This document shows positions 5,549 to 7,674 of a stretch of DNA of 32,912 bases, one piece after another. Every line of letters begins with the position of its first letter. The first letter of the stretch is position 1. The DNA is from Actinomycetota bacterium (GTDB lineage: Bacteria > Actinomycetota > Nitriliruptoria > Nitriliruptorales > Nitriliruptoraceae): NCBI GenBank assembly GCA_019348115.1, contig JAHWKB010000009.1, positions 1 to 32,912 on the forward strand, written 5' to 3'. The notes beneath the pieces were generated by a model that worked only from the letters and a program-made list of their open reading frames with translations, searched no databases and was not told the DNA's origin. A program made the translations under genes and the position numbers.

Positions 5549-5761
5549 GTGTCCCACGTCTACAAGAAGATCGAGCTCGTCGGCTCGTCCCGCGACGGCG
5601 TCGATGACGCCATCCGCCGTGCGATCCGCAAGGCCGGCGAGTCCATGCGCAACCTCGACTGGTTCGAGGTCAAGGAGATCCGCGGCTGGATCCAGGACGG
5701 CGAGGCGCAGCACTTCCAGGTGACGCTGCAGGTCGGCTTCCGCATCGGTGACGACGAGTAG
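5549..5761 (+). CDS. Dodecin family flavin-binding protein
   Basis: Small (70 residues) dodecin, which assembles as a hollow dodecamer that stores flavin (FMN, riboflavin) and in bacteria buffers free flavin. The sequence SHVYKKIELVGSSRDGVDDA followed by LDWFEVKEIRGWI and QHFQVTLQVGFRI matches the dodecin beta-alpha-beta-beta layout and closely resembles the mycobacterial protein. The Trp of LDWFEV is the residue that stacks with flavin in dodecins. GTG 5549 is chosen by the AGAGGAGGAA tract a few bases upstream and because it gives the exact family length; the track start at 5390 is too long. Stand-alone gene with its own -10-like box. Confidence 0.93.
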   Translation: MSHVYKKIELVGSSRDGVDDAIRRAIRKAGESMRNLDWFEVKEIRGWIQDGEAQHFQVTLQVGFRIGDDE

Positions 5762-5775
5762 CTGACCTCGGAGGT

Positions 5776-5804
5776 TTGTCGGGCGTCCGGGGCGGCCGTA
5801 CCCT
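5776..5804 (+). promoter_or_regulatory. Promoter of the cimA leader transcript
   Basis: TTGTCG at 5776-5781, a 17-base spacer and TACCCT at 5799-5804. This is the best -35/-10 pair I see in the window and would start RNA near 5811, about 210 bases before the cimA start codon, leaving room for a regulatory leader. Confidence 0.5.
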
Positions 5805-5856
5805 CGGACTGCTCCCGACGGCACCCGCCCGGGGGCGCGAGCGACCTGGATCACCG

Positions 5857-5940
5857 ATGACCGTCCCGACGACCGCCGCCTCCCGCCCCGCCGGGGACGA
5901 CGTCGCGCGCGCGATCATCGGCATTCCCCCGCTCCCGTAG
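5857..5940 (+). CDS. Putative isoleucine leader peptide upstream of cimA
   Basis: A 27-codon ORF from ATG 5857 to TAG 5938-5940, too short for the ORF track. The peptide ends RAIIGIPPLP: codons ATC ATC GGC ATT stand four to nine codons before the stop, so three of the last eight residues are isoleucine, in a very GC-rich setting where ATT is a rare codon. The downstream gene makes citramalate, the committed precursor of isoleucine. The stop codon lies inside a long hairpin (5929-5966). This is the layout of a ribosome-mediated attenuator. The ribosome-binding site is weak (a GGAT about eight bases before the ATG), which lowers confidence. Function is inferred from arrangement only. Confidence 0.5.
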   Translation: MTVPTTAASRPAGDDVARAIIGIPPLP

Positions 5941-5966
5941 CCGGCTGCGCCGGGCTGCGGGAGCGG
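5929..5966 (+). promoter_or_regulatory. Attenuator hairpin overlapping leader stop codon
   Basis: CCGCTCCCG (5929-5937) pairs perfectly with CGGGAGCGG (5958-5966). Pairing continues inward with a T-G wobble, AGCC with GGCT, and GGC with GCC around one bulged G, leaving a 3-nt loop: about 17 pairs. The left arm covers the last four leader codons, so a ribosome stalled at the Ile codons (5914-5925) would block it. No T-run follows. The heptamer GCTCCCG of the left arm is also present at 5811-5817 near the predicted RNA 5' end and could compete for the right arm. Confidence 0.55.
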
Positions 5967-6021
5967 CCCGGTCACACGGTCCACCTCCGTCCGCCCGGCG
6001 TCCGAACCTCGAGGACGACCT

Positions 6022-7674
6022 GTGAGCGACGCCCACCTACCCACGACGGGGGAGGCGGCCCGGCTGTCGGCCGGACTCGCGCTCTACGACACGACGCTGC
6101 GCGACGGCACCCAGCGCGAGGGCGTGAACCTCTCGGTCGAGGACAAGCTGAAGGTCGCTCGCCGCATGGACGCGCTCGGCATCCACTACATCGAGGGCGG
6201 CTGGCCGGGCGCGAACCCCAAGGACACCGAGTTCTTCCGCCGCGCCGCGGCGGGTGAGCTGTCGCTCGGCCACGCGACGCTCACCGCGTTCGGCATGACC
6301 CGGTCGTCGCGCTCGACGGCGGAGGACGACCCCCTGCTGCAGGCGCTCGTCGACGCCCGGACCGACGTCATCTGCCTCGTGGGGAAGTCCTGGGGCTACC
6401 ACGTCGACGAGGCGCTCGGCGTCCCGCGGGAGACCAACCTCGCGATGGTGGCGGACTCGATCGCGCACCTGGTGTCGCTCGGCAAGCGCGTGTTCTTCGA
6501 CGCGGAGCACTTCTTCGACGGCTACGCGCGGGACCGGAACTACGCCGTGGACGTCGTCACCGCCGCGGCCGAGGCCGGCGCCGAGGCGGTCGTCCTCTGT
6601 GACACCAACGGTGGGGCCATGCCATGGGACGTCGTCGAGATCGTGCAGCGCTTCGTCCGTGACCTGCCGTGCGACGTGGGCCTGCACTTCCACGACGACG
6701 GGGGCTGCGCGGTGGCGAACTCGATGCTCGGGATCGAGGCCGGCGCCGTGCAGGTGCAGGGGACCGCCAACGGCCTCGGCGAGCGCTGCGGCAACGCCAA
6801 CCTCTTCACCGTGATGGCGGACCTGCAGCTCAAGCGCGGCCTGCGGCTCGTCCGCCCCGACCAGCTCGAGCGCCTCACCGAGGTGAGCCACGCCGTCGCC
6901 GAGATCTGCAACCAGGCGACGCCGGCGATCGCGCCCTACGTCGGGCACACCGCGTTCAGCCACAAGGCCGGGCTCCACGCGAGCGCGCTCGCCAAGGCGC
7001 CGGACATGTACCAGCACATCGCGCCCGAGGACGTCGGCAACGCGCAGCGGCTCGTCGTGAGCGAGCTCGCCGGCCGCTCCAACATCGTGCTGAAGGCCAA
7101 GGAGTTCGGGCTCGCGATCACCGACGAGCAGGCCGTCGCCGTGCTCTCCGAGGTCAAGCGCCGCGAGGCGGTGGGCTGGACCTACGAGGCGGCCGACGCG
7201 TCGTTCGAGCTGCTGCTGCGACGCACCACCGGGCTCCTCGCGCCGGAGGACGAGCCGTTCCAGAGCCAGCACTACCGGGTGTCGGTCGGCGGCGGCCGCG
7301 GACGCCCCGCGGTCGGCCCGGACGCCGGCGAGGCCGACGGTCCCGCCGAGGCGATCCTGTCGGTGCTGGTGGACGGCCAGCGCCGGCTCGGCGCCGGCGA
7401 GGGCAACGGTCCCGTCGACGCGCTCGACCACGCCTTCCGCAACGCCGTGAACGGCACCTGGCCGTCGCTCGACGCCATCCACCTCTCGGACTACAAGGTG
7501 CGCGTCCTCGAGTCGTCGCACGGGACCGACGCCGTCACGCGGGTGCTCGTCACCTCGACGGACGGCACGGGCACGTGGGACACCGTCGGGGTGCACCCGA
7601 ACATCGTCGAGGCGTCCTGGCTGGCGCTGTCCGACGCCTACACCCACGCCATCCTCCGCCCCCGCTGGGGCTGA
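6022..7674 (+). CDS. cimA: (R)-citramalate synthase
   Basis: Condenses pyruvate with acetyl-CoA to citramalate, the first step of the threonine-independent route to isoleucine. The protein has 550 residues. An N-terminal HMGL-like TIM barrel carries YDTTLRDGTQREGV, CDTNGGAMPWDV, the metal-binding LHFHDDGGCAVAN and the GLGERCGNANL loop. A C-terminal LeuA-type regulatory domain begins after residue 400 and ends near RPRWG; in this family it binds the feedback inhibitor. The pattern YIEGGWPGANPKDTEFF near the N-terminus is typical of the CimA branch (TIGR00977), not of 2-isopropylmalate synthase. GTG 6022 follows GAGGA by six bases. A promoter, leader ORF and hairpin lie just upstream, suggesting control by isoleucine supply. 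The FAH-family gene starts 24 bases later, likely in the same transcript. Confidence 0.92.
   Translation: MSDAHLPTTGEAARLSAGLALYDTTLRDGTQREGVNLSVEDKLKVARRMDALGIHYIEGGWPGANPKDTEFFRRAAAGELSLGHATLTAFGMTRSSRSTAEDDPLLQALVDARTDVICLVGKSWGYHVDEALGVPRETNLAMVADSIAHLVSLGKRVFFDAEHFFDGYARDRNYAVDVVTAAAEAGAEAVVLCDTNGGAMPWDVVEIVQRFVRDLPCDVGLHFHDDGGCAVANSMLGIEAGAVQVQGTANGLGERCGNANLFTVMADLQLKRGLRLVRPDQLERLTEVSHAVAEICNQATPAIAPYVGHTAFSHKAGLHASALAKAPDMYQHIAPEDVGNAQRLVVSELAGRSNIVLKAKEFGLAITDEQAVAVLSEVKRREAVGWTYEAADASFELLLRRTTGLLAPEDEPFQSQHYRVSVGGGRGRPAVGPDAGEADGPAEAILSVLVDGQRRLGAGEGNGPVDALDHAFRNAVNGTWPSLDAIHLSDYKVRVLESSHGTDAVTRVLVTSTDGTGTWDTVGVHPNIVEASWLALSDAYTHAILRPRWG

Follow-up and report, generated by a model that had tools for sequence, protein, structure and literature searches.

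A candidate isoleucine-sensing leader in front of the citramalate synthase gene in Nitriliruptoria

Citramalate synthase is an entry enzyme of isoleucine synthesis and serves a threonine-independent route. In the stretch of DNA analysed here (the window; 32,912 nt from a draft genome of family f1 within the class Nitriliruptoria, of which our sample included 66 genomes), the citramalate synthase gene cimA is preceded by a short leader that was originally predicted to contain a leader peptide and a hairpin responding to isoleucine. Does this leader sense isoleucine, and by what steps might it act on the gene behind it?

The cimA locus and its leader ORF

All features below lie on the forward strand. 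The gene behind the leader (6022-7674; GTG start, with GAGGA at 6011-6015) is, as judged by homology, a true citramalate synthase. Its product scores 590.7 bits with TIGR00977 (E 1.9e-177; cut-off 450) and carries HMGL-like and LeuA_dimer domains. As a threonine-dehydratase-like gene is also present in most genomes, cimA need not be the sole route to isoleucine. Two small genomes of genus g11 (G011 and G022; 96-97% complete) matched the threonine dehydratase family only weakly, and cimA may be the sole isoleucine entry in these. Just upstream of the leader lies a dodecin gene (5549-5761; PF07311 E 1.1e-27, NF043052 above cut-off).

The promoter-like pair named in the original prediction is present in the window at 5776-5804, with TTGTCG at 5776-5781, a spacing of 17 nt and TACCCT at 5799-5804; a generic sigma-70 scan did not call this pair as a promoter. 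At the matching place most relatives of the same family (f1) have a promoter-like TCGACA-N18-TACNGT, and leaders of family f5 have TTGNNN-N17/18-CACACT, 7-10 nt before the start of the leader ORF (uORF). The uORF is predicted to be leaderless in most f5 genomes, given the CACACT-like hexamer so close to its start codon, and in most f1 relatives it is preceded by a Shine-Dalgarno-like sequence. Its frame, its start and its Shine-Dalgarno or leaderless layout are kept across the leaders compared; its translation is predicted.

The 27-codon ORF at 5857-5940 proved to be as originally described. It reads MTVPTTAASRPAGDDVARAIIGIPPLP and ends in AIIGIPPLP before the stop codon, and its putative control region, ATC ATC GGC ATT (5914-5925), places isoleucine codons at 5914-5919 and 5923-5925, that is, at codons -8, -7 and -5 from the stop. 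These codons are also kept in relatives, as an in-frame run across 42 Nitriliruptoria leaders: 41 of the 42 have isoleucine at codon -5, 38 have it at -6, 34 at -7 and 10 at -8. In the last 12 codons of these leaders, 139 of 504 in-frame codons are isoleucine, compared with 4 and 0 in the other two frames. Codon -4 is isoleucine in 0/42 leaders, although the hairpin described below imposes nothing there, and we offer no explanation for this.

The same element stands before cimA in 28 of the 29 genomes of this family whose cimA upstream sequence is assembled, a count that leaves out six genomes without cimA or cut at the cimA 5' end. The isoleucine codons near the ORF end are followed mostly by x-x-L-P-stop, running into CGCTCCCGTAGCCGG-loop-CCGGGCTGCGGGAGCGGCCCGG, and outside this block of ORF end and hairpin the same-family leaders are dissimilar. 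Such recurrence in frame and in register puts these features well beyond chance. The one same-family exception is G002 (L007, L083), in which cimA lacks the element and lies close behind dodecin.

Competing partners of one strand

A hairpin of roughly 17 pairs had been proposed at 5929-5966, its left arm covering the last four codons and the stop. We find this hairpin (H1) with 17 pairs and -34.8 kcal/mol when folded alone, but its left arm, segment A (5929-5945), spans the last three codons, the stop codon and 5 nt. The right arm is segment B (5949-5966), the strand that appears to switch partners. A 66-nt segment with H1 has a fold z of -3.1, equalled by 2 of 200 shuffles. In 42 leaders (40 distinct rows) aligned to a covariance model, 96.7% of H1 cells are standard pairs, and two-sided changes occur at 5 pairs in 12 cells (shuffle mean 3.3 cells); of 500 shuffles, none reached the 12-cell count and one reached the pair count. 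That alignment was made by a model fitted to H1 and so is biased toward H1, and an earlier MAFFT alignment gave the same picture. The pairing, which the original prediction expected to covary, is thus held by compensating changes.

Where the LP-stop end of the peptide becomes LL-stop, the left arm changes from CTCCCG to CTCCTG, and in L066 the right arm carries the matching CAGGAG. That the peptide end of L066 changes from LP to LL with the pairing intact suggests that the pairing is kept rather than the peptide. We also considered the conserved LP-stop end as an arrest peptide and rejected this, since the LL-stop end of three f5 leaders shows that it is not required.

It could be argued that a chance hairpin has met chance isoleucine codons in a very GC-rich intergenic region. 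Hairpins arise easily in GC-rich DNA, and the whole 211-nt leader has a z of only -1.5. However, 42 leaders repeat the arrangement in frame and in register, with covariation, and this conservation refutes the reading; we give it practically no weight.

Strand B has further partners downstream. The inner part of B and segment C, directly 3' of B, can form an alternative hairpin, H2 (5949-5972), which pairs 5949-5956 with 5965-5972 around the loop GCGGGAGC and is formed in 42/42 leaders. As H1 and H2 share the bases of B, they are mutually exclusive. The H2 stem is CCGGGC/GCCCGG in f1 and, for example, GGUGCCGGC/GCCGGCACC in f5. With their own arms the mean H2 energies are -17.4 (f1) and -18.3 (f5) kcal/mol, compared with -11.1 and -13.0 kcal/mol when arms are exchanged between the clades; the arms thus compensate between clades. 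Permutation of the H2 3' arm reached the native mean in 0/5000 trials over all leaders and in 0/5000 within f5. Within f1, where the arms are nearly invariant, there was no covariation signal for H2 (1236/5000 permutations reached the native mean). A second downstream partner is segment D (5984-6000), which is C-rich and complementary to B. In 37 dissimilar leaders, B and the 60 nt after C gave a mean duplex energy of -25.4 kcal/mol, against -22.6 for permuted B, with 0/300 permutations as good; B against windows of the cimA coding sequence gave -20.8 kcal/mol.

The original prediction had looked upstream for a competitor of the right arm, naming the heptamer GCTCCCG. This copy is indeed present at 5811-5817, but a copy of at least 6 bases lies near the RNA start in only 2 of 41 leaders, so its role as competitor does not hold up. 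The conserved competitors for B are located downstream, namely H2 (42/42 leaders) and segment D. Pairing of the uORF Shine-Dalgarno sequence (region 1) with A was likewise rejected as too weak, with a mean z of -0.8 in f1 and +0.1 in f5. On these pairing patterns, a switch between A:B and pairing of B with downstream sequence is very likely.

A protein- or metabolite-binding RNA, with the short ORF incidental, would also explain why the stem sequence is conserved beyond what pairing alone needs. However, the conserved bases are the ones that pair alternately, the isoleucine codons are strictly in frame, the ORF start either follows a Shine-Dalgarno-like sequence or lies at the predicted 5' end of the RNA, and no Rfam family, T-box and known riboswitches included, matched the leader at E values up to 1. 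We regard a binding RNA as very improbable.

The position of the ribosome and the polarity of the switch

The choice between these exclusive structures depends, by computation, on where the ribosome stands. In our stall model the front of the ribosome lies 12 nt downstream of the A-site codon's first base, in keeping with what is generally known of ribosome footprints. In this model the downstream partners of B were preferred in 20 of 42 leaders with the A-site at -7, in 27 at -6, in 39 at -5 and in all 42 at -3 or later; in the leader of the window itself the switch falls between -6 and -4. A stall at a conserved isoleucine codon flips the fold in 38/41 leaders for -5 and in 16/34 for -7. The conservation of isoleucine climbs toward -5 in the same order as the flip. 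The masking of the left arm on which the original prediction rests thus holds computationally for a stall at -5 and partly at -6, but not at the first isoleucine codon.

As the isoleucine codons sit on the threshold of the flip and are most conserved at -5, these computations favour, for stalls near A, the polarity in which the stalled ribosome masks A. With enough charged Ile-tRNA, the ribosome would finish the uORF and leave, A would pair with B, and transcription would end before cimA, either U-independently or by Rho acting on a freed C-rich stretch. With scarce Ile-tRNA, the ribosome would wait at the isoleucine codons next to A (-5, -6) and mask A, B would pair downstream, and cimA would be transcribed. 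We lean toward this polarity, in which an isoleucine stall turns cimA on, with modest confidence.

A is masked, too, while a ribosome occupies the stop codon, and the stall-masks-A polarity therefore needs prompt release. It follows that the polarity might be reversed and resemble that of trp: a stall at the first isoleucine codon would leave A free and H1 would be the antiterminator, and a ribosome at the stop codon would give H2 or B:D as terminator. Such a ribosome (edge at about +12) hides the whole of A and reaches up to B, since B begins 10-17 nt past the stop throughout the leaders, and H1 still competes well with a ribosome at Ile -7. A Pro-stop end, kept in most leaders, might slow release, which we also count for the reversed polarity. 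However, isoleucine is most conserved at -5, the position at which a stalled ribosome abolishes H1 in almost every leader; H2 and B:D are also without a U-run; and once the ribosome is released, H1 is more stable than H2 (-34.8 compared with -21.9 kcal/mol in the window leader). We therefore consider the reversed polarity unlikely, although it deserves weight.

The output step: termination or translation

If an isoleucine stall turns cimA on, how would the off state be imposed? No U-run follows H1 or H2: in 42 leaders the next 8 nt contain on average 0.5 T after H1 and 1.4 T after H2. A terminator scan found no terminator on the cimA strand, so that the label of a plain intrinsic terminator is not justified for H1. 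By contrast, the ilvB leaders of Nitriliruptoria carry tails rich in T, with a mean maximum of 3.9 T in 8 nt (20 leaders, including two mis-parsed ones scored 0). The spacer at 5973-6008 is C-rich and G-poor and is a possible Rho entry region. The 55 nt after H2 average 43.5% C, 30.6% G and 14.4 YC steps in 42 leaders, compared with 34.3%, 37.3% and 8.0 for the cimA coding sequence, a composition that fits Rho entry without being proof of it. The computed openness of the C-rich stretch did not differ between the two states (0.34 and 0.33, p 0.13), and we accordingly rejected a change in downstream openness as proof of Rho.

Alternatively, the leader might hide or open the cimA ribosome-binding site with no early end of transcription. 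The missing terminator-like U-run would suit such a translational switch, as would the slightly greater openness of the cimA start region under a stall (mean unpaired 0.42 compared with 0.38, p ~0.0009). However, this difference is tiny and many leaders do not show it, 76-161 nt separate the uORF stop from the chosen cimA start codon, and no conserved pairing with the cimA Shine-Dalgarno sequence was seen in the leaders compared. As the computed effect is small, we rejected hiding of the ribosome-binding site; translational control is disfavoured by the modelling, and we hold a purely translational switch to be improbable.

Premature termination is the probable output, and we infer that the off step would be U-independent or Rho-dependent termination. 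According to one review, Rho predominates in mycobacteria, and the studies that it cites on U-less terminators disagree (PMC12288462). A fuller scheme can be imagined, a U-less leader attenuator, ancestral to the class, that determines how strongly the citramalate route runs and in which B hides or frees a C-rich Rho site according to the isoleucine stall; taken as a whole, this scheme is speculative and we would not bet on it.

Distribution and relation to known attenuators

By sequence comparison, the arrangement is kept across the class Nitriliruptoria. Wherever loci were comparable, strong model matches lay upstream of cimA and once per genome, except for two genomes in which a different gene follows the element. 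In a search of 397 Actinomycetota genomes, class members included, the covariance model found nothing strong outside the class (best E 0.0024), and among the matches listed by an exact-pattern scan of public genomes, strong ones (E < 1e-7) occurred in at least 10 records, from Nitriliruptoria. There was some diversity within the class. The f3 element is not in front of cimA; in two f3 genomes (L071:1253-1966 in G055, and L073 in G042) the same leader element, with an ORF ending in FALIIRSVT, precedes a 197-aa protein that has no family match at E 0.001 and to the eye resembles an ACT-domain regulator. In f4 (L078-L081), the cimA leader ORFs end IIR.. and a different hairpin set follows (CUGGUGC..GCACCAG).

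Among 50 cimA loci from other actinobacterial groups, at least six have an isoleucine-containing short ORF in front (L273, L274, L278, L279, L284 and L289), and a GC hairpin whose tail is rich in T comes next in at least five of them; these six were chosen by pattern and by eye rather than by a statistical test. One such leader ORF reads MVAMPQQTSTNVPFIIIP. With an element kept across the class and canonical versions before cimA elsewhere, control by a leader may be a general feature of cimA in the phylum.

Taken together, we are confident from the conserved sequence features that this is an isoleucine-sensing leader acting on cimA. That it works as a ribosome-mediated attenuator of the U-less kind is reasonably probable: this reading draws on the in-frame isoleucine codons, the covariation of H1, the arm-matching of H2, the complementarity of B to downstream sequence, the order of the flip and the U-tailed isoleucine leaders before cimA in other actinobacteria. 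Against it we count that the missing U-run leaves no recognisable intrinsic terminator and that a ribosome at the first isoleucine codon (often -7 or earlier) leaves H1 possible.

In the trp type of attenuation of E. coli, one strand pairs upstream or downstream according to the position of the ribosome, and the proposed behavior of B is alike in this respect. Unlike E. coli trp, no separate U-tailed terminator was found, and arm A overlaps the stop codon.

A known relative is the Corynebacterium ilvBNC leader, described as the ilvB-II motif by Narunsky et al. 2023 (PMC10272879), who cite Morbach et al. 2000. Both have a leader ORF with branched-chain codons overlapping a hairpin, and alternative pairing. 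A leader peptide without a ribosome-binding site is likewise found in ilvBNC and predicted in the f5 cimA leaders. However, the Corynebacterium leader serves ilvB, has mixed Ile/Val/Leu codons and ends in a clear U-tailed terminator; the ilvB-II motif (before ilvB, with P1, P2 and a U-run on P2) does not describe the cimA leader, from which gene and U-run set it apart.

Actinobacterial amino-acid attenuators are known to use leader peptides, often leaderless, as described in PMC8079986 and in Seliverstov et al. 2005 (PMC1262725). In the parts consulted, Seliverstov et al. 2005 name ilvB, leuA, leuS, trp, trpS, cys and ileS and not cimA, and the text of the S. lividans re-annotation (PMC8079986) mentions neither cimA nor citramalate. 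The cimA leader resembles leuL1 and trpL2 of S. lividans, attenuators without a U-run (PMC8079986), and differs from the listed actinobacterial attenuators in that its control codons are isoleucine only. In the open-licence literature we found no paper on a leader peptide or attenuator of citramalate synthase, although a report in a subscription journal is possible. What would be new here is an isoleucine-codon leader-peptide attenuator before cimA, a variant of known attenuation in a poorly studied class.

A further comparison is with the ilvB leader of the same genome (G000:C302, L220), whose ORF ends in TTIVVRSVVLVR and is followed by a hairpin and then by a CCTCCC/GGGAGG terminator-like hairpin. 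Both leaders have a short ORF followed by a hairpin, the ORF ending in Val/Leu/Ile codons in the case of ilvB; what sets the ilvB leader apart from that of cimA is the separate CCTCCC/GGGAGG terminator, which carries a T-rich tail in most relatives. U-less cimA and mostly U-tailed ilvB attenuators within one class offer a natural comparison for the debated question of whether actinobacterial RNA polymerase stops at U-less hairpins or needs Rho (PMC12288462).
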